Part shown: piece after piece, positions 6,368 through 27,878 of the stretch | Layout: each line of letters starts with the position of its first letter | Numbering within the stretch: position 1 is the first letter of the stretch | DNA from: a virus | Direction: 5' to 3' (one strand) | Virus record (IMG/VR): IMGVR_UViG_3300040856_002284 | Location: 1 to 59,200 of that record | DNA length: 59,200 bases | Program-made: the position numbers and the translations under genes | The notes under the pieces: model-generated | Told to the model about the DNA's origin: nothing | The model's database searches: none | The model's input: the letters and a program-made list of their open reading frames with translations, nothing else

Positions 6368-7091
6368 ACTTTATGTTTTTGGTGATAGTTTTGCAACTCC
6401 TAATTCTCCTCATCTTGAACAAGGATTTGAAACTTATATAACTCAATTAGAAAGACATTATGAAATACAAAATTATGCAGTTAGAGGAATAGGATTAAGT
6501 GAAACAATAGGAAGGTTATTGAGTGTGCTAGATAATGGGATACATCCAGATTCATATTTGCTTATAACATTACCTGATTGTTTCAGATTAAAAACAAATT
6601 TTTTCCAACCTGAAGAACAAGTCTACACAAAGTTATTACAATCAGAAGAAAGTTTAAAAATTTATAGTAAAGAATTATGGCATCAATTTCGTAAATATGT
6701 TCCATTTATTAAAAATATGCATGAATATTACCTATCAAAAGAACTTGATTATGAACATAAAGAAAATATAAAAGGATTAGCTACAATAAAGACTCTAAGT
6801 GAACATTTTAAAAAAACTATTGTTTTTCCAGTTACCTATAGCGAAAAAACACTCAAAAAATTAGATAACAATTTAATTACAAACAATAACAAATTTTGTT
6901 TTGTAAACAAAAATTTAGTAGATTTATCTAAAAATGAGTATAAAAAGTACTTTAATTTACCAATAGGAAAAGATTATAGACAAAACCATTTTTCGTCCTC
7001 TAATCATAATGAAATGTTTATATTTATTTTAAACTATTTTCAAAAAAATGTTGTTAAAGAATTAAAATTAAGACAAAATTTTTTAACTTGA
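6357..7091 (+). CDS. SGNH/GDSL hydrolase-like protein (B)
   Basis: 244 residues; N-terminal VFGDSFA is a classic SGNH block I (GDS). The expected block V is weak: an NHFSSSNHNE segment near residue 220 may supply the His. Overlaps gene A by 11 bases. More AT-rich and Lys/Asn-rich than its neighbours. Substrate unknown. Confidence 0.55.
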   Translation: MKNKLYVFGDSFATPNSPHLEQGFETYITQLERHYEIQNYAVRGIGLSETIGRLLSVLDNGIHPDSYLLITLPDCFRLKTNFFQPEEQVYTKLLQSEESLKIYSKELWHQFRKYVPFIKNMHEYYLSKELDYEHKENIKGLATIKTLSEHFKKTIVFPVTYSEKTLKKLDNNLITNNNKFCFVNKNLVDLSKNEYKKYFNLPIGKDYRQNHFSSSNHNEMFIFILNYFQKNVVKELKLRQNFLT

Positions 7092-7134: not shown

Positions 7135-7977
7135 ATGAAAATAAATCTTATCAATAAATGGGCAATTGAAATCGAAGATTTTGATTTGCGCACAAGTAGC
7201 ACAGAAGATGCTCATGTAATTGGAAGGCTAATACTTTCTAACATGGTTGTAGTTTTACGCAATCAAAAATTAGAACCAGAAGATGAAGTTGCTTTTTGTT
7301 CTAAAATTGGTGAATGTCAATTTATTATAAATCCTGTGTTACCAAAAGAAGGACAGCGTACAGAACACTTGGCTGTTGGAAATCATATTTTAAGAGTTAC
7401 AGGACAAAAAAACGACAAAGGAGAAGAAGGACTTTTTGGGCATACAAGTGCATTAGACTGGCATGCCAATCAAGCAAGTAATTACAACAGAGATCCTTTA
7501 ATTTGGCTATATGGTGTAGAAGGTACAGCAGGTAGTGTAACAAGTTGGATTAATAATATAGAAAGTTATAAATCTCTTAGTGACGAAATGAAAGATGAAA
7601 TAAAAGATGTTGAAATCACACTTGGTTACAAAACAGGATCATATAGTCCAAGTAAGTTTTTTAAAGAACACCACGACGCAGATAAACCTTTTAAACTAGT
7701 ACACACAAATGATGCAGGCGAAACTGGATTGTATTTTCCTTTCTTACAAATTTTTGGTATGAAGGGTAAAACTGAGACAGAATTTAAAGACTTGATGGAC
7801 AGACTTATTGCACATGTAACCAAACCTGAATTTTGTTATGATCATCATTGGCAAAATGGAGATGTTGTTATAAGTGAACAATGGTTGAGTATACACAAAC
7901 GTTGGGCGTTTGAACATATGGACAAAAGAGTTTTACACAGAATTGCATTTAATTACAAAAATTTGCTTGACAACTAA
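7135..7977 (+). CDS. TauD/TfdA-type 2OG dioxygenase-like protein with HAN instead of HxD
   Basis: 280 residues, usual TauD length. LDWHANQAS at 108-115 aligns with the TauD/TfdA WHxD iron motif but has Asn112 where Asp is expected; the codon is clearly AAT. The distal H254 and the 2-oxoglutarate-binding R269 (VLHRIAF) are present. In known non-haem Fe halogenases this carboxylate is replaced by Ala or Gly; Asn is not the standard case, so the enzyme could be a variant oxygenase, a non-canonical catalyst or inactive. Confidence 0.8.
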   Translation: MKINLINKWAIEIEDFDLRTSSTEDAHVIGRLILSNMVVVLRNQKLEPEDEVAFCSKIGECQFIINPVLPKEGQRTEHLAVGNHILRVTGQKNDKGEEGLFGHTSALDWHANQASNYNRDPLIWLYGVEGTAGSVTSWINNIESYKSLSDEMKDEIKDVEITLGYKTGSYSPSKFFKEHHDADKPFKLVHTNDAGETGLYFPFLQIFGMKGKTETEFKDLMDRLIAHVTKPEFCYDHHWQNGDVVISEQWLSIHKRWAFEHMDKRVLHRIAFNYKNLLDN

Positions 7978-9377: not shown

Positions 9378-9468
9378 GGACGGGTGGCTGAGTGGTCGAA
9401 AGCACTCCCCTGCTAAGGGAGCATACGTTGATAGCGTATCCAGGGTTCAAATCCCTGTCCGTCCGCCA
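9378..9468 (+). tRNA. tRNA-Ser(GCU)
   Basis: Acceptor stem GGACGGG with UCCGUCC, anticodon loop CTGCTAA (anticodon GCT), long variable arm typical of Ser, T-loop GGTTCAAATCC, encoded CCA end. Confidence 0.95.
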
Positions 9469-9484
9469 TAAAAGGAATAAAGTT

Positions 9485-9556
9485 ATGATATGTCCAGAAT
9501 GTAAAACAGAATTAGGACACAACGATTGGTGTCCAAATTGTAAAGTGCGTAGATGA
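9485..9556 (+). CDS. 23-aa zinc-ribbon microprotein
   Basis: ATG 9485 to TGA 9556 encodes 23 residues with CPEC and CPNC separated by 10 residues, a complete zinc-ribbon knuckle pair. Its TGA overlaps the next ATG (ATGA). Too short for routine gene calling, but both the motif and the overlap argue it is real. Confidence 0.5.
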   Translation: MICPECKTELGHNDWCPNCKVRR

Positions 9557-10221
9557 GAGTAATTGCATTTGGTTGCAGTTATACATACGGACACGGACTT
9601 CCCGATTGTATAGATAAAAATAATTATAAAGCACCAGGTCCTAACCCTAGTATTTTTTCTTGGGCAAATTTGTTTGCTACAAAACATATGAAAAGACCTT
9701 GTGTAAATATGTCAAAATGTGGTGCATCAAATCAACGAATTGCTTGGAGCGTTTTAAATTTTGATTTTAGAGAAAACGACTATGTTATTATTTTATGGAC
9801 TCATCCATTTAGGAATGGCATGATAAACCAAGATAAAACCGTAACAGAGTTTAAATGGTATGACTTAAATGAAAAACGGAGCAAGTTATACTTTCAACAT
9901 ATAGACAATGATGTTAATAGTTTATACAATTATGCAAGTAGTATAAATTTAGTAGAAAAATATTTGAAAATTAAGAAAATTAATTTTTTAAACTTAGAAC
10001 ATGTTGATAGTAAAAACCTATTCAAAGAACACAATCTAATTAATTTGCACGACACACTAGAATTTCATAACTACGGGCTATACTTTTGTGCGCCGCCTGT
10101 TCGGTTTCAAGACTTAGCAGTTGATAAAAGACATCCTGGACGCAAAGCGCATCATTGGTATGCTACACGATTAGCTGAAAAAACAAAAGTAAAACTTAAC
10201 TTAGAAAAAGTTTTGAAATAA
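9553..10221 (+). CDS. SGNH-like protein (C)
   Basis: 222 residues; FGCSYTYGHGLPDC near the start (Ser9) and a C-terminal DKRHPGRKAHHWYA segment that fits the Asp/His of SGNH block V. About equally long and clearly paralogous to the next gene, with the same N-terminal block, an IMWT/ILWTHPFR strand in the middle and the same C-terminal HPG-HxWYA. Substrate unknown. Confidence 0.55.
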   Translation: MRVIAFGCSYTYGHGLPDCIDKNNYKAPGPNPSIFSWANLFATKHMKRPCVNMSKCGASNQRIAWSVLNFDFRENDYVIILWTHPFRNGMINQDKTVTEFKWYDLNEKRSKLYFQHIDNDVNSLYNYASSINLVEKYLKIKKINFLNLEHVDSKNLFKEHNLINLHDTLEFHNYGLYFCAPPVRFQDLAVDKRHPGRKAHHWYATRLAEKTKVKLNLEKVLK

Positions 10222-10229
10222 TAAAGATA

Positions 10230-10925
10230 ATGTCTAAATTACAAAGTCAAAATATAAAACGTTTGATTACTTATGGATGCAGTTATACTTACGGACATGG
10301 ATTACCTGATTGTATTCATAAAAAAAATATAAGTTGGCCTGGAGAATACCCAAGTTCTTTCGCATGGCCAAAACTTCTTTCTAAATATCTTAACATTAAA
10401 AAGATAGATAACAGGGCTAAATGCGGTAGTAGCATTAAAGAGCTAGGATATAACATTTTACAATCATCATTGAATGTGTCAACAGACTTTGTAATTATTA
10501 TGTGGACAAATCCTTTTAGAGTTGGTATTTTAAACGATGATGATACTACAACAAATCTAGGACATTGGGGTATAGGAGATTCAAATACAAAAAATTATTA
10601 CAAACGATATTATAATGATTTAGACATGTTATATAATTATGCAAGTTCTGTTATTATGTGTAATGAGTTTTTAAAATCAGAAGGTGTTAAGTTTTTGACT
10701 ATCGAATATACTCCTTCTTTTACATACTTTAATAAGTTTAGAAAAAATCATTGGTATAAATTGTGTAATTTTCAAAATGATGAAAAATATTTTGTTTTAC
10801 CTCCTCGAGATTATATGGATTATGCAATAGATGGTAATCACCCGGGCATAAAACAACATGAGTGGTATGCACAAGTTTTAAAAAATCAAATAATTCAAAA
10901 AAAAATATTGACAATAGCTAAATAG
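10230..10925 (+). CDS. SGNH-like protein (D), tandem paralogue
   Basis: 231 residues, a tandem duplicate of the gene before it: YGCSYTYGHGLPDC at residues 16-29, IIMWTNPFRVG in the middle, and DGNHPGIKQHEWYA at the C-terminus. The pair has diverged considerably, so the duplication is not recent. Confidence 0.55.
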   Translation: MSKLQSQNIKRLITYGCSYTYGHGLPDCIHKKNISWPGEYPSSFAWPKLLSKYLNIKKIDNRAKCGSSIKELGYNILQSSLNVSTDFVIIMWTNPFRVGILNDDDTTTNLGHWGIGDSNTKNYYKRYYNDLDMLYNYASSVIMCNEFLKSEGVKFLTIEYTPSFTYFNKFRKNHWYKLCNFQNDEKYFVLPPRDYMDYAIDGNHPGIKQHEWYAQVLKNQIIQKKILTIAK

Positions 10926-10935
10926 ATGCTATAGT
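10908..10935 (+). promoter_or_regulatory. Sigma70-like promoter of the tRNA array
   Basis: TTGACA (10908-10913), 16-base spacer, TATAGT (10930-10935), within the last codons of the SGNH-like gene D and about 40 bases before the first tRNA. Confidence 0.7.
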
Positions 10936-10977
10936 AATTAAGTAAGCAGTAATGTTTACATGTTATTTGAAAACTTA

Positions 10978-11053
10978 GCCGCTTTAGCTCAGCTGGTAGA
11001 GCAACTGATTTGTAATCAGTGGGTCGGGAGTTCAAGTCTCTCAAGCGGCACCA
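10978..11053 (+). tRNA. tRNA-Thr(UGU)
   Basis: GCCGCTT/AAGCGGC acceptor, anticodon stem ACTGA/TCAGT with loop TTTGTAA (TGT), encoded CCA. Confidence 0.95.
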
Positions 11054-11057
11054 TTAT

Positions 11058-11132
11058 TCCGGAATAGCTCAGCGGTAGAGCAAGTGGCTGTTAACCACTG
11101 GGTCGTAGGTTCGATCCCTACTTCCGGAGCCA
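11058..11132 (+). tRNA. tRNA-Asn(GUU)
   Basis: TCCGGAA/TTCCGGA acceptor, anticodon stem AGTGG/CCACT with loop CTGTTAA (GTT), encoded CCA. Confidence 0.95.
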
Positions 11133-11133
11133 T

Positions 11134-11218
11134 GCGAGTATGGTGAAATTGGTAGACACGCTAGATTTAGGTTCTAGTGCTTTACAGCGTGGGGGTTCAA
11201 GTCCCTCTACTCGCACCA
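11134..11218 (+). tRNA. tRNA-Leu(UAG)
   Basis: GCGAGTA acceptor, anticodon stem CTAGA/TCTAG with loop TTTAGGT (TAG), long variable arm, encoded CCA. Confidence 0.95.
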
Positions 11219-11222
11219 TTAT

Positions 11223-11296
11223 GTCGGTGAAGTGTTATGGTAGCACGTCAGTCTCCAAAACTGAAAGCCGGGGTTCGACTCCCTGCACCGATGCCA
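11223..11296 (+). tRNA. tRNA-Trp(CCA)
   Basis: GTCGGTG/CACCGAT acceptor (first pair G-U), anticodon stem TCAGT/ACTGA with loop CTCCAAA (CCA), encoded CCA end. Confidence 0.92.
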
Positions 11297-11298
11297 AT

Positions 11299-11375
11299 CT
11301 CGGTATAGCACAGCCTGGTAGTGCGCTTGTTTTGGGTACAAGAGGTCGTTGGTTCGAATCCAGCTACCGAGACCA
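11299..11375 (+). tRNA. tRNA-Pro(UGG)
   Basis: CTCGGTA/TACCGAG acceptor, anticodon stem CTTGT/ACAAG with loop TTTGGGT (TGG), encoded CCA. Confidence 0.94.
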
Positions 11376-11379
11376 TAAA

Positions 11380-11455
11380 GGGGATATAGCTCAGTTGGGA
11401 GAGCGATTGATTTGCATTCAATAGGTCATCGGTTCGATCCCGGTTATCTCCACCA
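11380..11455 (+). tRNA. tRNA-Ala(UGC)
   Basis: GGGGATA/TATCTCC acceptor (one G-U), anticodon stem ATTGA/TCAAT with loop TTTGCAT (TGC), encoded CCA. Confidence 0.94.
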
Positions 11456-11458
11456 ATA

Positions 11459-11549
11459 TGTTGGTTGCTACGGATTAGCAACAACTGCTAGGATGCCGGG
11501 CAGGCGTAGGCAGTTGTTTAAGTAGAGGTCGGAACTCTTGCCAGCACCA
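11459..11549 (+). ncRNA. tRNA-like RNA with oversized central hairpin and CCA end
   Basis: Lies between tRNA-Ala and tRNA-Gly at normal tRNA spacing and ends in CCA. Six to seven acceptor pairs (TGTTGGT 11459-11465 with GCCAGCA 11540-11546), a D-arm-like GCTA-CGGAT-TAGC, and a 4-bp T-arm AGAG/CTCT with a degenerate loop GTCGGAA. In place of the anticodon arm is a 9-bp stem AACAACTGC/GCAGTTGTT capped by about 20 bases, with no 7-base anticodon loop. It may be a stable RNA of unknown role, like RNAs C and D of the T4 tRNA cluster, or a decayed tRNA. Confidence 0.5.
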
Positions 11550-11554
11550 ATAAT

Positions 11555-11629
11555 GCGGAGGTAGCTCAGTGGTAGAGCTCTTGCTTGCCAAGCAAGTGGT
11601 CGTGGGTTCGAACCCCATTCTCCGCTCCA
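11555..11629 (+). tRNA. tRNA-Gly(GCC)
   Basis: GCGGAGG acceptor, anticodon stem CTTGC/GCAAG with loop TTGCCAA (GCC), encoded CCA. Confidence 0.95.
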
Positions 11630-11636
11630 AATTTAA

Positions 11637-11712
11637 GGCCTGTTGGTAAAGTGGTTAATACGTCTGCCTGTCACGCAGAAGAACACCGGTTCGATCCCGG
11701 TACAGGTCGCCA
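11637..11712 (+). tRNA. tRNA-Asp(GUC)
   Basis: GGCCTGT/ACAGGTC acceptor, anticodon stem TCTGC/GCAGA with loop CTGTCAC (GTC), encoded CCA. Confidence 0.95.
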
Positions 11713-11716
11713 ACAT

Positions 11717-11792
11717 TGGGAATTAGCTCAATTGGTAGAGCAACGGTTTTTGGTACCGTAGGTTCCAGGTTCGAGTCCTGGATTCCCAGCCA
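11717..11792 (+). tRNA. tRNA-Gln(UUG)
   Basis: TGGGAAT/ATTCCCA acceptor, anticodon stem ACGGT/ACCGT with loop TTTTGGT (TTG), encoded CCA. Confidence 0.95.
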
Positions 11793-11793
11793 T

Positions 11794-11870
11794 GTGCATG
11801 TGTAGCTGAATGGTTAGGCCGCGGATTGCAAATCCGTTTTATGCAGGTTCGAGTCCTGTCATGCACTCCA
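11794..11870 (+). tRNA. tRNA-Cys(GCA)
   Basis: GTGCATG/CATGCAC acceptor, anticodon stem GCGGA/TCCGT with loop TTGCAAA (GCA), encoded CCA. Confidence 0.93.
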
Positions 11871-11876
11871 AATTAT

Positions 11877-11951
11877 GCGGACGTAGCTCAGGGGTAGAGC
11901 GCTGTCCTTCCAAGTCAGATGTCGCCAGTTCGAATCTGGTCGTCCGCTCCA
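11877..11951 (+). tRNA. tRNA-Gly(UCC)
   Basis: GCGGACG/CGTCCGC acceptor, anticodon loop CTTCCAA (TCC); the anticodon stem CTGTC/GTCAG has one T-T mismatch. Encoded CCA. Second Gly tRNA of the array. Confidence 0.92.
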
Positions 11952-11966
11952 ACTAAAAGGTAATTG

Positions 11967-12194
11967 ATGTTTAGTGTAGAATTTGACCATGACGAAGTTT
12001 TAATTACAATTGTTGACGATACTAACGATTGTGAAGATGTAATTGTTAATAGTTTCGATGACATAGTTTATATTAGACAATGGGATGAAGACATTAACAT
12101 GATGCAAGCAATAGCAATGACACCAAAAATGTGGGAAGAATTAATGACAAGTATTCATTCTTCAGAAGGTGTTTACATCTCAAATCGTAAATAA
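11967..12194 (+). CDS. Acidic phage protein, 75 aa
   Basis: ATG 11967 preferred over TTG 11964; AAAGGTAA precedes it. Very acidic N-terminal half, no recognised domain. It follows the tRNA array by 15 bases and is probably in the same transcript. Confidence 0.6.
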   Translation: MFSVEFDHDEVLITIVDDTNDCEDVIVNSFDDIVYIRQWDEDINMMQAIAMTPKMWEELMTSIHSSEGVYISNRK

Positions 12195-12197
12195 CAT

Positions 12198-12362
12198 ATG
12201 ATAAGAGCACAGAAAGAAATTATCTGGCATCTAACTTGCACTAGTTGCAAGCACTATTGGTCTTTCCCTACAATGAACGATAAATACCGCATTGACAGAG
12301 CACAATTATATTGCCCAGGATGTGGTAGAAAATGTGGTGTTGAAATAGAAGAACAACAATAG
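12198..12362 (+). CDS. Zinc-ribbon protein, 54 aa
   Basis: ATG 12198 to TAG 12360-12362. CTSC at residues 14-17 and CPGCGRKC at 39-46 form a zinc-ribbon. The last base of its stop codon is the first base of tRNA-Ser(UGA), so processing of that tRNA would cut the message at the stop codon. Confidence 0.6.
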   Translation: MIRAQKEIIWHLTCTSCKHYWSFPTMNDKYRIDRAQLYCPGCGRKCGVEIEEQQ

Positions 12363-12451
12363 GTGGGTTGGCAGAGCGGTTGAATGCACTGGTCTTGAAA
12401 ACCAGCGAAGGTGAAAGTCTTCCCAGGGTTCGAATCCCTGACCCACCGCCA
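12362..12451 (+). tRNA. tRNA-Ser(UGA)
   Basis: GGTGGGT/ACCCACC acceptor, anticodon stem CTGGT/ACCAG with loop CTTGAAA (TGA), long variable arm, encoded CCA. Confidence 0.95.
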
Positions 12452-12559: not shown

Positions 12560-13195
12560 ATGATAACAATGCACAATGAAGTTAAGAAAGCAGTTATTAG
12601 AAGCCAGCATTGCCAACGTAATTTTGATTTGACAAAAGAAATGCCACAGGAGGATCTGGATCTTCTTGTACATGCGGCTACTAATTGTCCAAGTAAACAA
12701 AACATCCGTTTTTACAACCTACATGTTTTTACTGATCTAGAAAAGATTGCTAAAATTCATGAAATGACAACAGGTGTTGATGCTTATGACAAGGACGGAA
12801 ACTTTGTTCCAACTACAAACAGCCAAACAATGGCTAATGTACTATTTGTATTCGAAAGAAGAGAAATTGATCAACTTTCAGAATTCGGATCACGTAAGTG
12901 GACAACAGCTGACATGGCAGCTATTAATGTTTATGAAAGAGATCTTGCAACAGCAACAGGTATTGCAGCAGGATACGTAAACGTAACAGCTGGTATGCTA
13001 GGTTACGGCACTGGTTGCTGCCAGTGTTTCCAAATTGAAAACATCAAAGAGTATCTAGGTTTAGAGAACGATCCAGTTCTACTAATGGGTATTGGTTTCA
13101 AAAACGGAGAGAAAAACCGTAGAGTTCACGCAACAGAAGAACTAGTGTTCCCAACACGCAAAAAAGAAGACATCGTTGTAACTTACAATAAGTAA
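12560..13195 (+). CDS. Nitroreductase-family flavoprotein
   Basis: 211 residues. The opening RSQHCQRNFD segment and AATNCPSKQNIRFYNLHVF (residues about 39-57) match the FMN-binding start of nitroreductases, and GYGTGCCQCF and LLMGIGFKNGEKNRR fit the later FMN-contact and family C-terminal parts. Likely an NAD(P)H- or flavin-dependent reductase; the substrate is unknown. Strong ribosome site AAAGGAGG. Slightly less AT-rich than its neighbours. A terminator follows, so it is probably a single-gene unit. Confidence 0.75.
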   Translation: MITMHNEVKKAVIRSQHCQRNFDLTKEMPQEDLDLLVHAATNCPSKQNIRFYNLHVFTDLEKIAKIHEMTTGVDAYDKDGNFVPTTNSQTMANVLFVFERREIDQLSEFGSRKWTTADMAAINVYERDLATATGIAAGYVNVTAGMLGYGTGCCQCFQIENIKEYLGLENDPVLLMGIGFKNGEKNRRVHATEELVFPTRKKEDIVVTYNK

Positions 13196-13904: not shown

Positions 13905-15101
13905 ATGAAACCAATTTACTATGTAATACCAGAGTTATCAGCTAATCCACATACAAGTGCTCACACTGAAAATCTTGGACCAAAACCAACTACACAGCTT
14001 GAGCCTTATTTTAATCATTTTGATAGATTTAATCCTAGACAATTTGTGTCTACTGAAATGTTGCCATTTTTACCCAAAGATGCAATTAAAATAATCAGCA
14101 TTTTTGTATACCTTCCGGCGAGCTGTGAATTTACAATAGATAAAAAATTAAAAAAACTTGTTAATACTGATGTTAACACATTTTTAGGTTTATGGAGTGT
14201 GCAAGAAGCTCAACTTAACGAGCATAGAATAACCGCAGCTATAGAACAAAATAAAGTAAAAAAAGAAAAAACAATACTTATAACTACAAATTATGAAAAT
14301 CATTTAAAGAAAGTTGCCGATGTAAATCATGTGTTTATAAACTATTGGGAAAGTTATACACGCAGATGTTTTAGACTTACAAGTAACTTCAGTCGTATCA
14401 CTCCAAAGCAACGATTAGAAAGTTTAGATACAGCAAACAAAAAGTTTATTTCATTAAATAGAAATGTTAGACATCATAGACTTTGGTGGTATTATGCAAT
14501 ATGTAAATTAGATATGTTAAACGAAGGTCATGTAAGTTATTTGCTACCCGAAATAAGTTTACGTCTACATGAAGATTTTTTACATGGTACATTGGTCAAG
14601 CAAAAACTTCCTGATGCAATTAAAGATAGTTTTGCAAATGATTTCAAAAAATTGTGCAAAATACGTAAATTAGATGATGCAGATAAAAAATGGATTATAA
14701 ACTTTCAAAATGGTGTTACTAACTATTATCACGATAGTCTGTTTAGTTTAGTTACAGAAAGCAGTATTAGATCTAATTTTTTAACTGAAAAAACCTATAA
14801 AGCAATTTATCATATGCACCCGTTTTTTGTAATAGGGATAAAAGATCAACACCAACTTTTAAGAGATAGAGGGTATTATACATTTGAAGATTTTTTTGGT
14901 GTAGAAGAAGTTACCGATTATTCACAAGCAATTGAACTTTTACAAAAAGTTAAAAAAACATCTATAAGTGAATATAAAACCAAAGTAAAAAAAGTTTTTG
15001 ACAAATTAGAACATAACATGTATAATTTTATTAATCGTGAAATAAGTTGGACTGACTTTGAACGAGACTTGCGTAAGGCTATAAATGGACAAATACGGTA
15101 A
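13905..15101 (+). CDS. Possible glycosyltransferase-like protein heading the radical SAM run
   Basis: 398 residues. The segment from about 270 to 325 (SLFSLVTESS, then FLTEKTYKAIYHMHPFFVIG) resembles the nucleotide-sugar-binding region of fucosyltransferase/exostosin-like enzymes, where an invariant TEK is followed by a hydrophobic strand; the rest is not recognisable. No signal peptide. The first of seven genes that overlap each other up to 21692. Function is inferred weakly. Confidence 0.5.
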   Translation: MKPIYYVIPELSANPHTSAHTENLGPKPTTQLEPYFNHFDRFNPRQFVSTEMLPFLPKDAIKIISIFVYLPASCEFTIDKKLKKLVNTDVNTFLGLWSVQEAQLNEHRITAAIEQNKVKKEKTILITTNYENHLKKVADVNHVFINYWESYTRRCFRLTSNFSRITPKQRLESLDTANKKFISLNRNVRHHRLWWYYAICKLDMLNEGHVSYLLPEISLRLHEDFLHGTLVKQKLPDAIKDSFANDFKKLCKIRKLDDADKKWIINFQNGVTNYYHDSLFSLVTESSIRSNFLTEKTYKAIYHMHPFFVIGIKDQHQLLRDRGYYTFEDFFGVEEVTDYSQAIELLQKVKKTSISEYKTKVKKVFDKLEHNMYNFINREISWTDFERDLRKAINGQIR

Positions 15102-16278
15102 AAACTTTTGTATGGCACCTTGGGTGCATATGAGCGTCTGGCAGACTGGAGACGCTTACCCGTGTTGCATTTACGATTGGAATAAACCTATCGGAAATAT
15201 AAACGAAAATGGGTTTAAGGGTGTTTGGAATAGCCATAAGATGCGCCAACTTAGACTTGATATGCTTCAAGATAGAGCCAGTCCAGGTTGTTCTAAATGC
15301 ATTATGTATGATAATCAAGGAATACTAAGTTATAGGTATAAATTTAATAATGAATATATTCACCATTACGATTTAGTAGAAACAACAAAAGAAGATGGCA
15401 GCGTAGATAAATTAAATGTTGCTTACTTTGATGTTAGATTTAGTAATCTTTGTAATATGAAATGTCGAACATGTGGTCCTCATTTTAGCAGTAAATGGGC
15501 AGAAGATACAGAAGGCAAACCTCGTGTTGTAGAAATTAATCACCCAGGTATGTGGGAAGAAATAGAAACAATGCTGCCTAATATAGAAGAAATATATTTT
15601 ACAGGTGGCGAGAGTATGTTTATGGATCAGCACTATAAGTTACTAGATTTGCTTATACAAAACAACTTAAAACCAAAACTAACCTATAATAGCAATGGCA
15701 GTAGATTAAGTCTAAAAAACAAACATATAAAAGATTACTGGAATCACTTTGATAATATATTCTTTGGCATAAGTTTAGATCAAATTGAATCTAAAGCTGA
15801 GTACACTAGACATGGACAACCGTGGAATACTATACTAGAAAATTTACTTTACATTAGAAACGAATTTCCACAGGTAACTATACAACCAAATCCTACAATA
15901 AATGTTTACAATATTTTAAACTTAAGAGAAATAGTGAACTTTTTGTTTAAATATAATCTTGCTACAGATTATGATATAAATTTAAGTAATATTTTAGTAG
16001 GTCCTAACTATTTAAGTTGTACTATATTACCACAAGAACTCAAAGACGTTGCTGTAAAAAAATTAGATCAATTGATTAAGGATTTTGATTACTTTGATAT
16101 GTATCCACAACGTAAAGATTTTTTAACTGATCAAGTTAACAACATAAAAAATTATTTGCAAAGCAAAGATGATACTGATCTTATACCAAAATTTAAAGAA
16201 GAAATGCAAAAGTTAGATAACATAAGGAATGAAAACTTTATAAAAGTATTTCCAGAATTGAGAGTGCTGTATGACTAA
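15085..16278 (+). CDS. Radical SAM protein with N-terminal SPASM-like module (cluster gene 1)
   Basis: 397 residues. N-terminal module: C9, C27-C28, C69xxC72, including an IGNI segment and VWNSHKMRQLR that read like a SPASM domain (normally C-terminal in this superfamily). Then the radical SAM core with C123, C127, C130 and TGGES at 173-177. It would cleave SAM to a 5'-deoxyadenosyl radical; the substrate is unknown. Starts 17 bases inside the previous gene. Closest in the window to the next gene: both begin FCM(A/M)PWVHM. Confidence 0.88.
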   Translation: MDKYGKNFCMAPWVHMSVWQTGDAYPCCIYDWNKPIGNINENGFKGVWNSHKMRQLRLDMLQDRASPGCSKCIMYDNQGILSYRYKFNNEYIHHYDLVETTKEDGSVDKLNVAYFDVRFSNLCNMKCRTCGPHFSSKWAEDTEGKPRVVEINHPGMWEEIETMLPNIEEIYFTGGESMFMDQHYKLLDLLIQNNLKPKLTYNSNGSRLSLKNKHIKDYWNHFDNIFFGISLDQIESKAEYTRHGQPWNTILENLLYIRNEFPQVTIQPNPTINVYNILNLREIVNFLFKYNLATDYDINLSNILVGPNYLSCTILPQELKDVAVKKLDQLIKDFDYFDMYPQRKDFLTDQVNNIKNYLQSKDDTDLIPKFKEEMQKLDNIRNENFIKVFPELRVLYD

Positions 16279-17464
16279 TAAAACTTTTTGCATGATGCCT
16301 TGGGTTCATATGCATCTTTGGCCGGCTGGTTATACATATCCTTGTTGTATGGCAGATCCAGAATTACCTGTTGGTAACACACAAACACAAAGTTTACAAG
16401 ATATTTGGAATGGTCCAGAGATGCGTCAGTTGCGTCTCAATATGCTACAAAACAAACAATCACCCGAATGCCGGCGTTGTTATGAACTTGAAGAAAATGG
16501 TATGTGGACATTGCGTAAGAGCTCAAACGAAAACTTTAAACATCATCAAAACAAAGTTGAAGAAACTAGCGATGATGGCAGTGCAGGTGACATAAACATG
16601 GCATACATGGATATACGTTTCAGTAACCTGTGTAATTTAAAATGTCGTAGTTGTGGTCCGCAATTCAGCAGTAGTTGGTTCGAAGATCACAAACAAACAC
16701 ACGGCGATCCAGGGCATCCTAAAATACTTAAAGTGCGTGATGACATGTTGAGCTTTATGGATGAACTAGATCCGTTGCTTGAAAGTGTAGAACGTGTATA
16801 TTGGGCAGGCGGTGAACCATTGATAACAGACGAACACTATAGAATACTTGACAAATGGATTGCTATGGGTAAACGTGATGTTAAAATGGATTATACGACA
16901 AATTTTACACAAATGCGTTACAAACGTAAAACAGCATTTGAATATTGGAATGCGTTTGAAAATGTGCGTGTAGCAGCAAGTTTAGATGCTAATCATGCCC
17001 GCGGTGAATACTTGCGTAAAAATATGGACTGGGCACAGGTTGTGCAAAACCGTCGTGATATGATTGAGCAGTGTCCTCAAGTGTATTTTGAAATTACGCC
17101 AACGGTTAGTGTTTACAATGTTTTCAATCTACCCGACTTCCACAAAGAATGGATAGAAGAAGGGTTATTAGAACCTCAAAACATACGAATTAATATTTTA
17201 TTAGATCCTACTTACATGCGTTTAAGTTTATTACCACCTTGGTTAAAAGATAAAGTTAGATTAAGATACATGGAGCATTTAAAGTATTTAGACCAATTTG
17301 ATAATATAAATGAAGTAAAAAACAATTACGAAAGTATTTTAAAATTTTTAAGTGACGATCATTCAGACGAAATAAAAATGTTTTTATTTAAAACAAAGCG
17401 TATGGATATGGTTAGGCAAGAAAGTTTTCAAAAAATATTTCCAGAACTAAGAGATATAGAATGA
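16271..17464 (+). CDS. Radical SAM protein with N-terminal SPASM-like module (cluster gene 2)
   Basis: 397 residues, same architecture and same length as cluster gene 1: C7, C25-C26, C67xxC70, then CNLKCRSC with C121, C125, C128 and AGGEP near residue 180. The radical SAM motif is followed by GPQFSSSW as in gene 1 (GPHFSSKW). Overlaps gene 1 by 8 bases. Probably a tandem duplicate that has diverged. Confidence 0.88.
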   Translation: MTNKTFCMMPWVHMHLWPAGYTYPCCMADPELPVGNTQTQSLQDIWNGPEMRQLRLNMLQNKQSPECRRCYELEENGMWTLRKSSNENFKHHQNKVEETSDDGSAGDINMAYMDIRFSNLCNLKCRSCGPQFSSSWFEDHKQTHGDPGHPKILKVRDDMLSFMDELDPLLESVERVYWAGGEPLITDEHYRILDKWIAMGKRDVKMDYTTNFTQMRYKRKTAFEYWNAFENVRVAASLDANHARGEYLRKNMDWAQVVQNRRDMIEQCPQVYFEITPTVSVYNVFNLPDFHKEWIEEGLLEPQNIRINILLDPTYMRLSLLPPWLKDKVRLRYMEHLKYLDQFDNINEVKNNYESILKFLSDDHSDEIKMFLFKTKRMDMVRQESFQKIFPELRDIE

Positions 17465-18669
17465 ACGACACATATTGTGTATACCCATTTATAAACGTAC
17501 ATACAAACACAGACGGAAGATGTAAATTATGCTGTCATGTTTATAGCGAAGATTATATACAGGCAGACGGACATGACGCTGTGTTAGGCAAAGACCGTTG
17601 GGAAAATATTTGGAATGGCGAATACATGTTAAATGTACGAGCTAATATGTTAGCAGGAAAGCCTGTTAAAGAATGTAGTCGCTGCTACGAGCACGAAGAA
17701 AAAGGTTTACAAAGCAGTAGGCAATGGGCAAACGCTAACTATAAAGCGCCATTACTGCATAGCAATCCTACTCACCTGGAACTTAGGCTTGGTAATCACT
17801 GCAACTTAAAGTGTAATAGTTGTTGGAGTGTTAGCAGCGACAACATTTACAAAGAACGCAAAAAGATTATGAGCAAAGAGCGTTTACCTACTTGGTTGCA
17901 TGATCAATGGGCACACGAAATACGCAGTGTAGAAGAACACGACTGGCAATGGTATGAAACACAAGAGTTTCGTGACTTTGTAGATACGGTAGCACCTACA
18001 TTAGAACGTTTGTACATGACAGGTGGAGAGCCTACCCTTATACAAGCAAACCAGTATGTGTTGGATAAACTTGTTGAAGTTAGCAATACAAAATGTCATG
18101 TTGCATGGACTACAAACATGACAACATGGCCAGAAGGATTTTATGATAAACTAGATTTCTTTAACAGCAGTGAAGTACAGATGAGTATAGATGGATATGG
18201 TGATCATAACATGTATATCCGCTATCCTACAGATTGGAACAAAGTTGAAGAAAACTTTGCAAAAGCAATGACACTGCCGGAAAAAGTACAACTCAAAATT
18301 TATTTTGTATATCAAGCATGGAATGTGTTTGATGTTGCACCATTAGTAAAGTGGCTAGAAAGCACACAAACAAGGCGTGTTGACTTTGTGCCTATCTTCT
18401 TAGAGCATCCTGATCAATTACATAGTTGTGTATGGCCTAACGAAATTTTGCATAAAGCATTAGATGATTTGCGTATGATTAAAACAACACACCATAAAGA
18501 TCCTGTACAAAGAATCATTAACTACACACTTAATACGGATAAATACAGCGTAGAAAACATAAAACGTATGAAGCAATTTATTGCTATAAATGACAAATAT
18601 AGAAAACACAAGTTTAGTACTATATTTCCATTGTTAGATTTAATATTGGAAACTGAATGCAAGATATAA
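17461..18669 (+). CDS. Radical SAM protein with N-terminal SPASM-like module (cluster gene 3)
   Basis: 402 residues: C6, C21, C24-C25, C72xxC75, then HCNLKCNSC (C114, C118, C121) and TGGEP near residue 185. The extra C21 differs from its paralogues. ATGA overlap with gene 2. The His-Cys and similar pairs use TGC after a codon ending AC, part of the ACTGT avoidance described in the findings. Confidence 0.88.
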   Translation: MNDTYCVYPFINVHTNTDGRCKLCCHVYSEDYIQADGHDAVLGKDRWENIWNGEYMLNVRANMLAGKPVKECSRCYEHEEKGLQSSRQWANANYKAPLLHSNPTHLELRLGNHCNLKCNSCWSVSSDNIYKERKKIMSKERLPTWLHDQWAHEIRSVEEHDWQWYETQEFRDFVDTVAPTLERLYMTGGEPTLIQANQYVLDKLVEVSNTKCHVAWTTNMTTWPEGFYDKLDFFNSSEVQMSIDGYGDHNMYIRYPTDWNKVEENFAKAMTLPEKVQLKIYFVYQAWNVFDVAPLVKWLESTQTRRVDFVPIFLEHPDQLHSCVWPNEILHKALDDLRMIKTTHHKDPVQRIINYTLNTDKYSVENIKRMKQFIAINDKYRKHKFSTIFPLLDLILETECKI

Positions 18670-19649
18670 AAGCTATTATTCCAGCAAAGGATAAATGGGT
18701 AAGTTTAGTTTGGCAGGTTAATGATTGGTGCAACTTCCGTTGCACTTATTGTTCAGAATGGAATTGGGCGGGCCGTAATAAAAACGATAGCGATATAGAT
18801 ACTATTGTAAACACACTTGAACGTATTATCAAAACATATCAAGATAAAGGTTACAGATATTTTAAATTATATCTCAGTGGAGGAGAACCAACCTACTGGG
18901 CAGCATTGTTACCTGTCGTAAACAAGTTTAGAGAAATGGTAGAGTGGCCTGGTAGCAGTGTAGGCATTAACACAAACTTCAGTAGACCGTTGAGTTGGTG
19001 GGAAGAACATCATCACTTGTTTGAAGATGTTGTTGCAAGTTATCATCCTGAATGGACAAAAGAAGAAAAGTACATGATCAACTACAAGTTTCTACAAGAT
19101 AAGAAGAACTACTTGTGTAGTCGTGTAATGATGCAAAAAGAAAACTTCCAACAATGTGTGGATTTTACACAGCGTATAAAAGACGAATGCGACAATTACA
19201 TAATTGAATACGCACCTGTGTATGATGCATTACGTCCAAGCACTGATCCTTATCATTATGATGATCCGGAACAACTTGCATTTATTAAAAGTCACACTAC
19301 AGATAGACAACAAAAAATAGAAATAAAAAAGCAACCTAACTATGCATGGGCAAAAACTTGGTTTGAAGATGATAGTATAGAACCAATTGACACAAATGCT
19401 ATTATTGTAGAAGGCAAAAACTTTTTCAAAGGATGGACTTGTAACATACATGAAAGTTTACACATACATCCAAACGGAAACATTCAACAAGCCAGTTGCG
19501 GTGTAGGTCCTATAGTAGGCAACATTGTGCGTGGAGAGTTTAACGATTTGCTTACCGAAGGCGTAATTTGTCCAAAACATCATTGTCATTGTGCTGCTGA
19601 CTTTAACATCACCAAAGCAAGGCCTGAATATGCAAAAGAAATACAATAA
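18657..19649 (+). CDS. Radical SAM protein with C-terminal cysteine cluster (cluster gene 4)
   Basis: 330 residues and different in plan: the radical SAM motif CNFRCTYC (C25, C29, C32) is at the very start, SGGEP follows near residue 75, and the extra cysteines are at the C-terminus (GWTC, QASCG, ICPKHHCHC), i.e. a conventional C-terminal auxiliary-cluster position. Probably performs a different step from its neighbours. It does not show the CX14CX2C pattern of QueE-type enzymes, so a queuosine role is unlikely. Overlaps gene 3 by 13 bases. Confidence 0.85.
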   Translation: MQDIKAIIPAKDKWVSLVWQVNDWCNFRCTYCSEWNWAGRNKNDSDIDTIVNTLERIIKTYQDKGYRYFKLYLSGGEPTYWAALLPVVNKFREMVEWPGSSVGINTNFSRPLSWWEEHHHLFEDVVASYHPEWTKEEKYMINYKFLQDKKNYLCSRVMMQKENFQQCVDFTQRIKDECDNYIIEYAPVYDALRPSTDPYHYDDPEQLAFIKSHTTDRQQKIEIKKQPNYAWAKTWFEDDSIEPIDTNAIIVEGKNFFKGWTCNIHESLHIHPNGNIQQASCGVGPIVGNIVRGEFNDLLTEGVICPKHHCHCAADFNITKARPEYAKEIQ

Positions 19650-20982
19650 AGATACATATTGTCATAGTGCTATGCATAGTTTTAGTTTACACAGCAATGG
19701 TAGAACTAGACCCTGTTGTGTAAGTAAAGTTCATACATCAAAATTTATGCCAGGAACAGATGTTCAACGATATCCTGCCTATTCATCTAATCCAGATCAT
19801 TATCAAGTTGCTGCGGACATAGAAGAATTTGTAAATGACGATAGTCTAAAACAAATTAGGAAACAAATGCTAAACGGTGAGAAGCCTGATGCTTGTAAAG
19901 AATGTTTTAACTTAGAACAAAAAGGTATAAAAAGTTTTAGACAATTACATAATGATGACCACATTGAAGATATTGATACAACATTAGAAAACATAAACGA
20001 AGATGGCAGTGTTGATATTAAGGCAATAAATTATTTAGATGTTACACTAGGAAATGTTTGCAATTTAAAATGTCGTACTTGTAATCCTTGGGCTAGTCAT
20101 AGTTGGTTAGATGAAGCACCAACCGTACCTCATAATGAATTTACAAAAACTACTTATATTGTAAGTAAAATGAGCAGCCAAAATCCGTGGTTTTTACAAG
20201 CATTTGAAACAGGATTTTTTGACGAAGTTCTACCTAATGTATCCACAATCAACTTTTTAGGAGGTGAACCTTTAGTTGTAAAAGAACATTATGCTTGGTT
20301 AGAAAAAATTGTAAAAATGGGTTATTCAAAAAACATAACATTACAATACAACAGCAATGGCACAACCATACCAAAAAAAATACTAGATGTATGGAAAAAT
20401 TTTAAACAGATTGTTTTGAGTTTAAGCATAGATGCAGTTGACGAATTAGCGTATTACGTTAGACATCCTAGTAAATGGCATGTAATACAGCGTAATGTAG
20501 GTAAGTTAGCAATTTACACAAGAACAAATTCAAACCTAAGTGTGCAAACTCATGTAACTTTAAGCAGCTTAAACATTCATGCACTACCTAAAATTATTGC
20601 ATGGTGCGGACAAAATTACAAGACCTGGAATCACATTGATAAATCTGATAACAACAATTGGAGACATCATGGGTATGAAAACTTTTTACCTCATTTCAAT
20701 ATAGTTGAACGCCCTTACAACATGCACATGTGTCATATACCAGATAATGTTAAAAGTGACATGTGTAAAATGTTAGACGATCTATATAAGAGTTTAAAAA
20801 ATTCATCTATACCAGAATGGGAAAAACATAGTTTAGAAAACATTTTAAATTTAAAAAACATAATTAACCAACCTCGTAGTGAAAAAGAATGGAACAACTT
20901 TTTGGACAACACAAAAGCCAGTGACAGGTTTAGAAATGTAAACATAACTGATTACGTTCCTTGGATTAAAGAATGCATGTAA
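19630..20982 (+). CDS. Radical SAM protein with N-terminal SPASM-like module (cluster gene 5)
   Basis: 450 residues from ATG 19630, 20 bases inside the previous gene; an in-frame ATG at 19591 is possible but would add residues that the paralogues lack. C11, C29-C30, C89xxC92, then CNLKCRTC (C144, C148, C151) and LGGEP near 215. Longer than the other members, with an extra stretch between CC and CxxC and a longer C-terminus. Confidence 0.86.
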   Translation: MQKKYNKDTYCHSAMHSFSLHSNGRTRPCCVSKVHTSKFMPGTDVQRYPAYSSNPDHYQVAADIEEFVNDDSLKQIRKQMLNGEKPDACKECFNLEQKGIKSFRQLHNDDHIEDIDTTLENINEDGSVDIKAINYLDVTLGNVCNLKCRTCNPWASHSWLDEAPTVPHNEFTKTTYIVSKMSSQNPWFLQAFETGFFDEVLPNVSTINFLGGEPLVVKEHYAWLEKIVKMGYSKNITLQYNSNGTTIPKKILDVWKNFKQIVLSLSIDAVDELAYYVRHPSKWHVIQRNVGKLAIYTRTNSNLSVQTHVTLSSLNIHALPKIIAWCGQNYKTWNHIDKSDNNNWRHHGYENFLPHFNIVERPYNMHMCHIPDNVKSDMCKMLDDLYKSLKNSSIPEWEKHSLENILNLKNIINQPRSEKEWNNFLDNTKASDRFRNVNITDYVPWIKECM

Positions 20983-21692
20983 TATATAGAAAAACACTTG
21001 CAAAAAACTTTAGATACACAACAAACATTTATAATCATCGCTATGGGTGTAACGACGAAGAAGCAAAAAATAAAAATACATTAGAATTGTACATAAACAA
21101 GGCAAAAATGTATTATGTATCGCAACAGATCAAACCAAACACATATTTTTACTTGGAATTGGTCAATGTTTCGCTAGGGTATTTTGCAGTTGTTGTAGCA
21201 ATAGCAGAATTACAATGCATAATTACAAACAACAAAAACGAAGCCGACATAACAATCGATAGGATTGAATTAGATAATATTTTAAGTTATAATATTGTTG
21301 ATAGTAAAAAATGCACTAGTGTAAATAAAAAAATTCCTACTATGGATACACCTTTATATAAAAGGTTTGATAAAACATATACACATAGAGAATGTTTTGA
21401 TGCTAGTAGAATAAATTTTGATGATATAAAAGGCGAAGTGTTAATAGTTTCTAATGATACTTTGATACATAACCTTCTTAATGTATTGTTTCCTGTGTTA
21501 ATCAATTCTAATATTGGCAATAGACTAGCACTTGGTTATTATAACTTTGAAGATGCTAAACATAAAATTGCACACACAGCCATACATCATAGTATTGATC
21601 AAATATTCTTGCCAAGTGGTGTTGATTCAAGTGTAAAAAAAGAAATAGAAAATATTACACCAAATGTAAAAATTAGGTATTTTTGTTATTGA
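20973..21692 (+). CDS. Unknown protein closing the radical SAM run
   Basis: 239 residues, no confident family. The hydrophobic stretch near 65-85 and the order HNLLNVLFPVL ... QIFLPSG ... NVKI in the last third faintly resemble the middle of adenylate-forming (ANL) enzymes, but the ATP loop and the C-terminal domain are absent. Overlaps gene 5 by 10 bases, so it is made together with the radical SAM enzymes and may be a partner. It is followed directly by a new promoter. Confidence 0.5.
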   Translation: MHVIYRKTLAKNFRYTTNIYNHRYGCNDEEAKNKNTLELYINKAKMYYVSQQIKPNTYFYLELVNVSLGYFAVVVAIAELQCIITNNKNEADITIDRIELDNILSYNIVDSKKCTSVNKKIPTMDTPLYKRFDKTYTHRECFDASRINFDDIKGEVLIVSNDTLIHNLLNVLFPVLINSNIGNRLALGYYNFEDAKHKIAHTAIHHSIDQIFLPSGVDSSVKKEIENITPNVKIRYFCY

Positions 21693-25603: not shown

Positions 25604-26104
25604 ATGGTACAACCAATAACCTATAAGTACACAAGTACAAAAGAATATCACGATGCATTTCCATGTGCATATCGTCAATGGCGTGCTGATTCACATTGTA
25701 ATACTATTCACGGCTATGCATTTAGCATGAAGTTTTACTTTGGCACAAATGATTTAGATGCAAGAAACTGGGCTGCTGATTATGGCGGACTAAAAGACTT
25801 AAAAGCATTTTTAGAAGATCAGTTTGATCATACACTTATTGTGGCTGAAGACGATCCAGAACTGGAAACATTTAAACTACTGCAAGAAAAGAAAATGGCC
25901 AAAGTTGTTATACTGCCAGCAGTTGGATGTGAAATGTTAGCAGATCAACTTTACAAATATGTAAATGGCATTTATATTCCAGACATGTGGGGTCCAAGTG
26001 AAGCAGAACGCTTGTGGTGTTATCGTGTAGAAGTAAGAGAAACACAAAGCAATATGGCTTTCCGTGAAGGACACCGTGAATGGAATGAAGATTTATTTGA
26101 ATAA
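25604..26104 (+). CDS. queD: QueD/6-pyruvoyl-tetrahydropterin synthase-like protein
   Basis: 166 residues. The SHCNTIHGYAF segment (30-40) matches the QueD Cys...HGH region, with Cys32 as catalytic candidate; DYGGLKDLKAFLEDQFDHTL (59-78) matches the DFxxLK...LDH block. QueD makes 6-carboxy-tetrahydropterin for queuosine/7-deazaguanine synthesis. Two usual zinc histidines appear as Tyr (CAY for AAH, HGY for HGH), so zinc binding may differ. No FolE, QueE or QueC is recognised in this window. Confidence 0.78.
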   Translation: MVQPITYKYTSTKEYHDAFPCAYRQWRADSHCNTIHGYAFSMKFYFGTNDLDARNWAADYGGLKDLKAFLEDQFDHTLIVAEDDPELETFKLLQEKKMAKVVILPAVGCEMLADQLYKYVNGIYIPDMWGPSEAERLWCYRVEVRETQSNMAFREGHREWNEDLFE

Positions 26105-26796
26105 TGAATTATGTAGTTTGTCTAAAATGGGGTGACAAATATAGTGCAGACTATGTAAACAAATTACAAAGCATGGTGCAGCGTAATCTTTCGCTGCCCT
26201 ATGAATTTGTTTGCTTTACTGAAAACACTGATGGAATCACAAAAAATATTCGTACTGAAAAACTGCCAAAGTTACCTGTAACTGGCTGGTGGTATAAACC
26301 TTGGTTCTTTAGTAACGAAATTGGTTTAGAAGGTACAATACTTTTTTTAGATTTAGATTTGATTGTATTTCAAAACATAGACAAACTTTTCACTTATGAA
26401 CCTAAAAAGTTCTGTATTATACAAGACTTTAATAGAAAGTTTCATAGAAATTTTACAAGAGTAAATTCAAGTGTGTTTAGATTTCAAAGCGGACAATTTG
26501 TAGATCAATACAAAGACTTTGTACAAAACAGACAAAAATATTTAACAAGATATAAAGGAGACCAAGATTGGATTTATGCTAAAATGCCTAATCACACATT
26601 TTGGCCTCAAGAGTGGATACAAAGTTACAAATGGGAAATGCGTGGTAGACAATATCTTACACTAAAAAATGGAGTTAGAAATTTTACAGAGCCAGGCATA
26701 CCAGATATTTTACCAGAAACAAGCATTGCAGTATTTCATGGACAGCCTAATATGCATGATTGTATAGATAATTGGCCTAAACAAAATTGGCGTTAA
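26104..26796 (+). CDS. GT8-like glycosyltransferase
   Basis: 230 residues. FLDLDLIVF (81-89) carries the DxD metal/nucleotide-sugar motif (D83, D85) in the glycogenin/LgtC-type context, with an N-terminal Rossmann-like start and a later GDQDWIYA segment typical of GT8. Likely transfers a hexose to a surface, virion or lipid acceptor. ATG overlaps the previous stop; it ends tail-to-tail with the minus-strand radical SAM gene (4-base overlap). Confidence 0.75.
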   Translation: MNYVVCLKWGDKYSADYVNKLQSMVQRNLSLPYEFVCFTENTDGITKNIRTEKLPKLPVTGWWYKPWFFSNEIGLEGTILFLDLDLIVFQNIDKLFTYEPKKFCIIQDFNRKFHRNFTRVNSSVFRFQSGQFVDQYKDFVQNRQKYLTRYKGDQDWIYAKMPNHTFWPQEWIQSYKWEMRGRQYLTLKNGVRNFTEPGIPDILPETSIAVFHGQPNMHDCIDNWPKQNWR

Positions 26797-27878
26797 AATT
26801 TACTCCAGTACTCAGGAAACATATTACTATAGGATGAAAAGTTTGGATATTTTCCTATTGCATTTTTTTCCTTTTCTAAAATTATACTTTTGGTATCTAT
26901 TGTTTGACAATCTTGTTTAAGAAAAGAGCAAACACTATCATATTTTGATCCACTAGATTTATATTTAAGAAGTAGCTCTTTTTTTAACACATTATTTAAA
27001 GAACTTATTTCAAGACCATATGGGTATGTCAAAATATTGACATTGGATCCAACATTGTAATTATCAAAAAACTTCACCGTTTTATCTATTTCAAAAATAT
27101 TGTATACACTTGCTGTAATTACAACATGTAAATTCGGAAATAATTTATGATATCTTTCAAAGTTTTTAATCCATTTCTCCCAAACTAACCCTGTTCTTGT
27201 ATATTCTGCCATTTTTTCAATGCCATCCATACTAATATGAAATTCTAAATCTTTAAAACTTTTTAATGTTTTTATTTCTTTTTCACTTAATTTTATAGTG
27301 CCATTGGTGTTTATTTGTAATGTAATATTCTTTGCATAATTTTTTTCTACACAAAAATTTAATAACTTCCAAGACTCTTGATCAAATAAAATTTCTCCTC
27401 CTGTCATGTAAAGATATTCTATAGTTGATAGACTTTCGTAGATACTATTGTATAATCTACTATGAGGTTTAACAAAATCTATAACTTTAGATTCTCCAAA
27501 TTGTTCTTGCCAATGTAAACTACTAAATTGTGATGAACACATCCTACAAGCTAAATTACACTTATTGTTGAATCCTATGTGCAAATATTTAAGTTCAGGA
27601 TTAAATTTATTTTCTTTTATGTCCACGTCTACACTTTTTATTTTATTAAAAATGTTATAATAGGCATGTTTTGTATCTGACACCTTACATTTGTTGCATA
27701 CTTTGGGTATAGAATGACCAAGTGTTTGTTGCAAGTCTGAAAAGTTATGTTGATGCTCTTTAATGGATAAACTATTATTTCCAGCAACACCAGGTTGGTA
27801 CCAACAGCAAGGCTGTACTAATCCTCCTAATATACTAATAGCAATACTAGGTGCCGAACATATGCTTTTTTTGCTCAT
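26793..27878 (-). CDS. Radical SAM protein with N-terminal SPASM-like module, minus strand
   Basis: 361 residues from ATG 27878; the frame is open further upstream to 28082 but that part reads as random hydrophobic sequence and overlaps a promoter and a plus-strand gene. C7, C24-C25, C61xxC64, then CNLACRMC (C107, C111, C114) and TGGE near residue 150. Same plan as the tandem cluster. An AATAAATA late-type box lies 5 bases before the ATG with no ribosome site, so it may be expressed late and leaderless. Confidence 0.86.
   Translation of the reverse strand: MSKKSICSAPSIAISILGGLVQPCCWYQPGVAGNNSLSIKEHQHNFSDLQQTLGHSIPKVCNKCKVSDTKHAYYNIFNKIKSVDVDIKENKFNPELKYLHIGFNNKCNLACRMCSSQFSSLHWQEQFGESKVIDFVKPHSRLYNSIYESLSTIEYLYMTGGEILFDQESWKLLNFCVEKNYAKNITLQINTNGTIKLSEKEIKTLKSFKDLEFHISMDGIEKMAEYTRTGLVWEKWIKNFERYHKLFPNLHVVITASVYNIFEIDKTVKFFDNYNVGSNVNILTYPYGLEISSLNNVLKKELLLKYKSSGSKYDSVCSFLKQDCQTIDTKSIILEKEKNAIGKYPNFSSYSNMFPEYWSKF

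Follow-up and report, generated by a model that had tools for sequence, protein, structure and literature searches.

A conserved unit of radical SAM genes with an N-terminal twitch domain in T4-type phage DNA and its possible role in glycan tailoring

The subfamily model NF033640 (N_Twi_rSAM, NCBIfam) covers radical S-adenosylmethionine (SAM) proteins that carry a cysteine module in front of the catalytic core, and it has been curated without a function. The closest described enzymes include BtrN (butirosin; PDB 4m7t and 4m7s), a twitch-type radical SAM dehydrogenase of an aminocyclitol whose twitch domain is C-terminal, the SPASM enzymes (PF13186), such as anSME and CteB, and BlsE (7vob), a cytosylglucuronate decarboxylase. 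Among phages, three proteins of Vibrio phage KVP40 (0260, 0261 and 0272, annotated as MoaA/NifB/PqqE family) have an N-terminal cysteine module followed by CxxxCxxC. Genes of the same kind have also been mentioned in the same kind of island, among glycan genes rich in family GT8: pelagimyophages possess a "host recognition cluster" where no glycosyltransferase family is better represented than GT8 and where radical SAM cassettes are variably present (PMC7029224), and one T4-like marine genome has 12 radical SAM genes (PMC5332604). Here we analyzed a 59.2 kb record of a marine virus (IMGVR_UViG_3300040856_002284, hereafter the window), part of the genome of a tailed phage that shows T4-type traits, in which five tandem radical SAM genes lie at positions 15085-20982. 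An earlier note, made from the letters of this DNA, had pointed to these genes as an undescribed modification pathway in which a SPASM-like module had moved to the N-terminus.

The five tandem open reading frames (ORFs), B1 (15085-16278), B2 (16271-17464), B3 (17461-18669), D (18657-19649) and E (19630-20982), are all on the plus strand, intact and overlapping. The frame of E is open from a GTG at 19591, and the ATG at 19630 is the likelier start. Consecutive overlaps along the unit are 17 bases (between the upstream gene and B1), 8, 4, 13, 20 (between D and E, counted from the ATG of E) and 10 bases (between E and the downstream gene). Two solitary genes, the divergent A (397-1653, plus strand, start at either 277 or 397) and F (26793-27878, minus strand), bring the number of radical SAM genes in the window to seven. 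All seven proteins match the Pfam Radical_SAM core (PF04055), with D at 29.7 bits and with A (26.9 bits) and B2 (23.7 bits) under the cut-off of 29.5. At the curated NF033640 cut-off of 170 bits (whole-protein score), six of the seven belong to N_Twi_rSAM: B2 (400.8 bits), B1 (372.7), E (312.6), B3 (295.6), F (194.8) and A (176.3, barely above the cut-off). In each of these except F, the match spans almost the entire model. D falls outside the subfamily (25.1 bits). Thus, the gene counts, places and overlaps of 4-20 bases given in the earlier note were all reproduced, as was its assignment of the N-terminal cysteine module to A and F.

The cysteine pattern common to the six proteins is N-terminal and far beyond chance. 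We compared 256 homologous proteins from 54 contig groups, comprising the loci of the viral contig scans (60 with B2 and 42 with D as query), the window, a contig of a Bacteroidota metagenome-assembled genome (MAG) and a Vibrio phage. In B2 numbering, C7, C25, C67, C70, C121, C125 and C128 were invariant in 256/256. C26, the second residue of a CC pair (C25-C26, encoded at 16343-16348), was Cys in 201 of the 256, and most of the remaining proteins have Tyr or His there; in a set of 70 diverse homologues C26 was invariant together with the other seven. The N-terminal spacing and the CxxxCxxC motif were present in 466 of 471 fetched radical SAM-like matches. One idea is that C26 might serve as a hydrogen-atom donor, by analogy with radical epimerases.

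The earlier note had likened this module to SPASM, a domain that normally follows the core. PF13186 is indeed matched by B1 (residues 9-72, E 1.5e-12) and B2 (residues 7-71, E 1.2e-14), in both cases before the core. The seven-cysteine SPASM motif (CX9-15GX4C-gap-CX2CX5CX3C-gap-C) has, however, only its first half here: the first Cys, the CC and the CxxC precede the core, and the CX2CX5CX3C half that would give a full SPASM domain with two auxiliary clusters is absent. Because that part is missing, the module is, as judged from sequence and model, a BtrN-type twitch domain with one predicted auxiliary cluster. The pattern and its kinship with a domain behind the core stood, and the name SPASM did not.

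The permutation is also seen in profile comparison. When the family profile was compared with PDB sequences, residues 4-80 aligned to the C-terminal twitch of BtrN (4m7t, residues 183-261), with E-values of 7e-8 for the whole sequence and 3.6e-6 for the twitch stretch alone. All four ligand cysteines were aligned, and the C-x17-C spacing and the CxxC are identical in the two, although of the CC pair BtrN has the first Cys only. Residues 105-139 aligned to the BtrN core (residues 16-50), a stretch that is weak when taken alone. These alignments indicate that the domain order is permuted, the twitch before the core being homologous to the twitch behind the core elsewhere. An AlphaFold2 model of B2 (67 sequences; pLDDT 95.8, pTM 0.91) is consistent with this assignment. 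A BtrN-type twitch has a Cys before a β-hairpin, a Cys after it and a CxxC after the next helix, giving four ligands, and the order Cys, hairpin, Cys, helix α-2' and two Cys is described for twitch domains in the SkfB paper (PMC6231123). In the model, strands 13-16 and 21-23 lie between C7 and C25/C26, and helix 49-59 precedes C67/C70, so that the structure prediction proposed in the earlier note yields a twitch topology. A Foldseek search of the model against solved structures matched cores only, with BlsE first (2e-6; a partial alignment of 228 columns, TMq 0.38), followed by anSME and viperin. Among predicted viral structures, those of uncultured Caudovirales and of the Vibrio phages KVP40 and phi-pp2 matched the model over most or all of its length.

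D differs from its neighbors in having no N-terminal module. As the earlier note had recognized, its extra cysteines are at the C-terminus, in the conventional domain order; C262, C281, C305, C310 and C312 are invariant in an alignment of 14 homologues. The model of D is of moderate quality (pLDDT 68.5). When D and the N-twitch proteins were compared as profiles, only the cores matched clearly, and the comparison of the N-terminal twitch with the C-terminal module of D gave a match of only 19 columns at low probability.

The cluster recurs in related viruses in a fixed order. In the locus maps the genes run from a putative glycosyltransferase through B1, B2, a B12-binding radical SAM protein of about 720 amino acids (aa), B3 and D to E, and the order (B1)-B2-(B12-rSAM)-B3-D-E is held over about 30 viral contig groups. 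Adjacency was found in 34 groups for B3-D, 29 for D-E, 25 for B1-B2, 17 for B2 and the B12-binding gene and 15 for the latter and B3. In many relatives the B12-binding protein, absent from the window, stands between B2 and B3. It is a candidate C-methyltransferase of the same pathway and is encoded, for instance, at L072:6647-8815, and homologues occur in 23 contig groups. In a tree of the 256 proteins, B1 (21 groups, support 1.0), B2 (26 groups, 0.93), B3 (27 groups, 1.0) and E (26 groups, 0.996) each form a clade of their own. The slot before D corresponds to a single clade of 37 that holds 33/33 slot members, and the slot after D to a clade of 36 that holds 35/36. Overall, the paralog clades extend over 21-36 contig groups. 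Because the supported clades are specific to slots, the paralogs are, on this phylogenetic evidence, old, position-specific and separate lineages, and the clade structure rules out recent tandem duplication. In Nei-Gojobori comparisons with the relative L016, every gene of the unit had a dN of 0.046-0.43 and a dS of 0.9 or at saturation, and each is thus under strong purifying selection. Together, these data support the view that the five-gene cluster is one operon-like unit.

The relatives also show the company that this unit keeps. A tandem pair of GT8-type proteins (f5; glycogenin profile, E 2.9e-8) is present in 20 contig groups. Further neighbors are a GT7-type protein, a UDP-sugar dehydrogenase, carbamoyltransferases, a nucleotidyltransferase fused to a mannose-6-phosphate-isomerase-type cupin, a sugar C-methyltransferase, an NAD-dependent epimerase and SGNH-like proteins, the last by motif reading only. 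A tail-fiber-like gene (f14) precedes the virion-like gene f7 in 12 groups with a median gap of 14 bases; from f7 the array continues, with genes mostly overlapping, into the N-twitch genes, so that the cassette follows f14 and f7 at short gaps in 12-16 groups. In KVP40, a PF00534 glycosyltransferase lies two genes away from the N-twitch gene KVP40.0272. This setting is in keeping with what was reported for pelagimyophages and their host recognition cluster (PMC7029224). It points to glycan chemistry, at which the earlier note had merely hinted.

The cassette probably makes an unusual sugar on the surface of the host or of the virus itself. More specifically, we give about an even chance to the proposal that the unit at 13.9-21.7 kb is a glycan-tailoring pathway that works by radical chemistry, on the host surface or on tail fibers. 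The observations behind it are the domain order, the conserved ligands, the paralog clades, the gene order, the purifying selection and the sugar and tail-fiber neighbors of the relatives. Binding of two clusters, SAM cleavage, the chemistry, the sugar substrate, electron transfer by the twitch and the target are steps that we infer. Each N-twitch enzyme would cleave SAM on its CxxxCxxC cluster, and the resulting 5'-deoxyadenosyl radical would remove hydrogen from a sugar carbon. The N-terminal twitch would bind one auxiliary iron-sulfur cluster through C7, C25, C67 and C70 (in B2), placed like that of the C-terminal twitch in BtrN-type enzymes and probably accepting or relaying an electron. 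Because B1, B2, B3, D and E each descend from an old lineage of their own and keep a fixed order, they may serve different steps in the making of a single glycan, or different positions on it. The neighboring glycosyltransferases, together with the nucleotide-sugar, carbamoyl, methyl and SGNH enzymes of the relatives, would build and decorate the same glycan, and the product would most likely alter the host surface (superinfection exclusion) or coat the tail fibers of the phage. The known substrates of BtrN, SpeY and BlsE, which are aminocyclitols or sugar nucleosides, support a sugar substrate; in the comparison of the family profile with PDB sequences, BlsE (4.6e-6, in the core) and SpeY (3.9e-5) were both matched. 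A bolder version, in which a virus-borne assembly line of 4-6 permuted-twitch enzymes, sometimes with the B12-dependent one, edits several carbons of one glycan to give a sugar unknown from cells for surface conversion or tail-fiber coating, is possible but decidedly tentative.

Several observations weigh against a glycan pathway. In the window, the sugar context is thinner than in the relatives, consisting of a PHROG glycosyltransferase at 26104-26796 (plus strand, adjoining F; phrog_1962, E 1.7e-18), an SGNH-hydrolase-like gene and the weak GT10 likeness of the upstream gene, and the genes that adjoin the cluster are poorly identified. The upstream gene (13905-15101, plus strand), which is the first gene of the conserved unit, immediately precedes B1 in 17 contig groups and is putatively glycosyltransferase-like, was examined as a GT10 member and not accepted: its PF00852 match (18.7 bits, E 0.0015) is under the cut-off of 23.9, only the window protein among 17 homologues gives such a match while the other 16 give none, and a PDB search gave no match. 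The glycosyltransferase that the earlier note had suggested before the cluster was therefore not borne out. Since genes for tail fibers and for glycosyltransferases are concentrated in the same variable island, their adjacency to the cassette may in part be an effect of the island. The support of the B2 model for a twitch lies in the order of secondary structures, not in Cys-Cys distances. Peptide enzymes are about equally close, SkfB being the best match of the profile among PDB sequences and anSME the second in the Foldseek ranking; the fold cannot fix the substrate because twitch enzymes also act on peptides, and for this group the difficulty of predicting function from similarity networks has been pointed out (PMC6231123).

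The best of the alternatives is that the cassette directly modifies side chains of tail-fiber or virion proteins during maturation, as anSME does on sulfatases, and not a sugar. Both the position of the cassette behind f14 and f7 and the rank of the protein-modifying anSME among the structural matches would suit it. However, BtrN and BlsE are close relatives as well, and four to six radical enzymes accompanied by glycosyltransferases and by nucleotide-sugar, C-methyl and carbamoyl enzymes exceed what side-chain oxidation needs, and we consider this explanation unlikely.

It is also conceivable that unrelated radical SAM genes have simply piled up in a variable island and form no single pathway, as might be suggested by the solitary genes A and F and by the copy number of N_Twi_rSAM genes, which ranges from 4 to 21 per record. 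This appears quite improbable, given that B1, B2, B3 and E each form a deep clade of their own and are not recent duplicates, that they keep a constant order with D, an enzyme of another domain order, and that selection against change is strong. The extreme copy numbers were seen in G017, the record of L053 (57.7 kb of virus sequence with 18 NF033640 matches), and in G002, the record of L038 (518.6 kb with 21 matches); some of these matches are weak and core-only.

A pathway of the type of ribosomally synthesized and post-translationally modified peptides (RiPPs), in which the enzymes would cross-link or epimerize a small precursor peptide, might be expected from the fact that many SPASM and twitch enzymes are RiPP maturases and from the SkfB match. 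We regard it as very improbable and rejected the maturase assignment. The genes overlap, so that a precursor would find no space within the unit; the N-terminal domain is of the twitch type and not a RiPP recognition element (RRE), and no RRE was found with Pfam or NCBIfam models; no RiPP Pfam or NCBIfam equivalog was matched at cut-off; and no conserved small Cys-rich ORF was seen. The sole conserved small ORF in the unit, present in some relatives (f46, 106 aa), is SnoaL/NTF2-like by eye. The earlier note, too, had recognized no precursor peptide. Finally, modification of tRNA or of other nucleic-acid bases, which could be suggested by the 13 tRNA genes (9378-12451) and the PP-loop protein (PF01171, 2808-3410) upstream in the window and by the location of the KVP40 N-twitch genes near the QueC-like KVP40.0258, is the least probable of all and was dismissed, because the cassette has tRNA arrays beside it in the window's own lineage only, 32 of 45 scanned loci, including all distant ones, have no tRNA, and no NCBIfam model of tRNA or queuosine modification was matched at cut-off.

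Further genes of the window and its relatives were also recognized. T4-type genes in the window encode a head maturation protease, a baseplate wedge/tail-fiber connector and a clamp loader, the last with its closest relatives (55%) in Pseudomonas phages of 285-288 kb of the PA5oct type. The gene behind E (20973-21692, plus strand) has no family match and no relative in the collection scan, and weak homologues of it occur in some fetched loci. The SGNH-hydrolase-like gene (6357-7091, plus strand; motif GDSFA, cluster f76) was recognized by motif reading only, and a homologue of it is inserted between B2 and B3 in L016. Likewise, the SGNH reading of f2 and the GT-A reading of f3 are based on motifs, and PDB profile searches for the DUF6071/SGNH-like, f3 and f13 neighbors gave nothing usable. 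Upstream of the cluster are genes of the nitroreductase family (12560-13195) and the TauD family (7135-7977), and a TauD gene is also present upstream of the unit in L016. F matches phrog_14086 (E 8e-19) and Vibrio phage proteins, and is adjoined by a UvdE-type UV damage endonuclease gene (28094-29173); an ORF of 2124 aa is located at 30871-37245. In L007 (2707-3300), L008 (6992-7585) and L009 (6980-7573), the f10 nucleotidyltransferase is encoded upstream of the unit. Its protein begins with MKIRELLEA (MRLRQLFEA in L009), a start that may recall those by which T4 internal proteins are targeted to the capsid. In L092 (3032-5410), the B1 homologue is part of an ORF of 792 aa, roughly double the normal length and possibly a fusion.

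Bacterial matches to the subfamily were few. In a Bacteroidota sample, 2 of 198 genomes passed the NF033640 cut-off, both on short contigs. The few strong matches, L067, L122, L123 (Bacteroidota MAG) and L121, are on contigs of 4-10 kb and, because of this size, could represent phage DNA that was misbinned and not genes of bacteria. In addition, an N_Twi-like match was located within a 1665-aa open frame of a Bacteroidota genome (L113, G051:C7:165980-166954).

At the protein level, the genes in the window are new members of a known family. The pathway had been put forward as undescribed, and this applies in part: the permuted architecture of the six proteins is already that of NF033640, and radical SAM cassettes of phages are in print, whereas the family has no assigned function and was thus not found to be a known single-function one. 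The two phage reports (PMC7029224 and PMC5332604) merely mention such genes, and an analysis of architecture, paralogs or operon was not found in them. The KVP40 proteins 0260, 0261 and 0272 give near full-length NF033640 matches (E 5e-34 to 3e-39), yet below the cut-off, and their genes are not arranged as the five-gene unit. No published description of a multi-paralog N_Twi_rSAM operon was found in the open-license literature that was searched, and old, separate paralog clades in a fixed gene order are apparently new.

The N_Twi_rSAM family is mostly viral in the present sampling, with members on dozens of marine viral contigs. The fixed order of several enzymes provides a defined set of proteins for co-expression, and with KVP40 as a cultured relative, experiments can address why radical SAM genes are so numerous in marine phages. 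Should the glycan assignment be true, radical sugar chemistry would join the means by which phages alter cell and virion surfaces, and the domain of an auxiliary cluster could move to the other end of an enzyme and yet persist.

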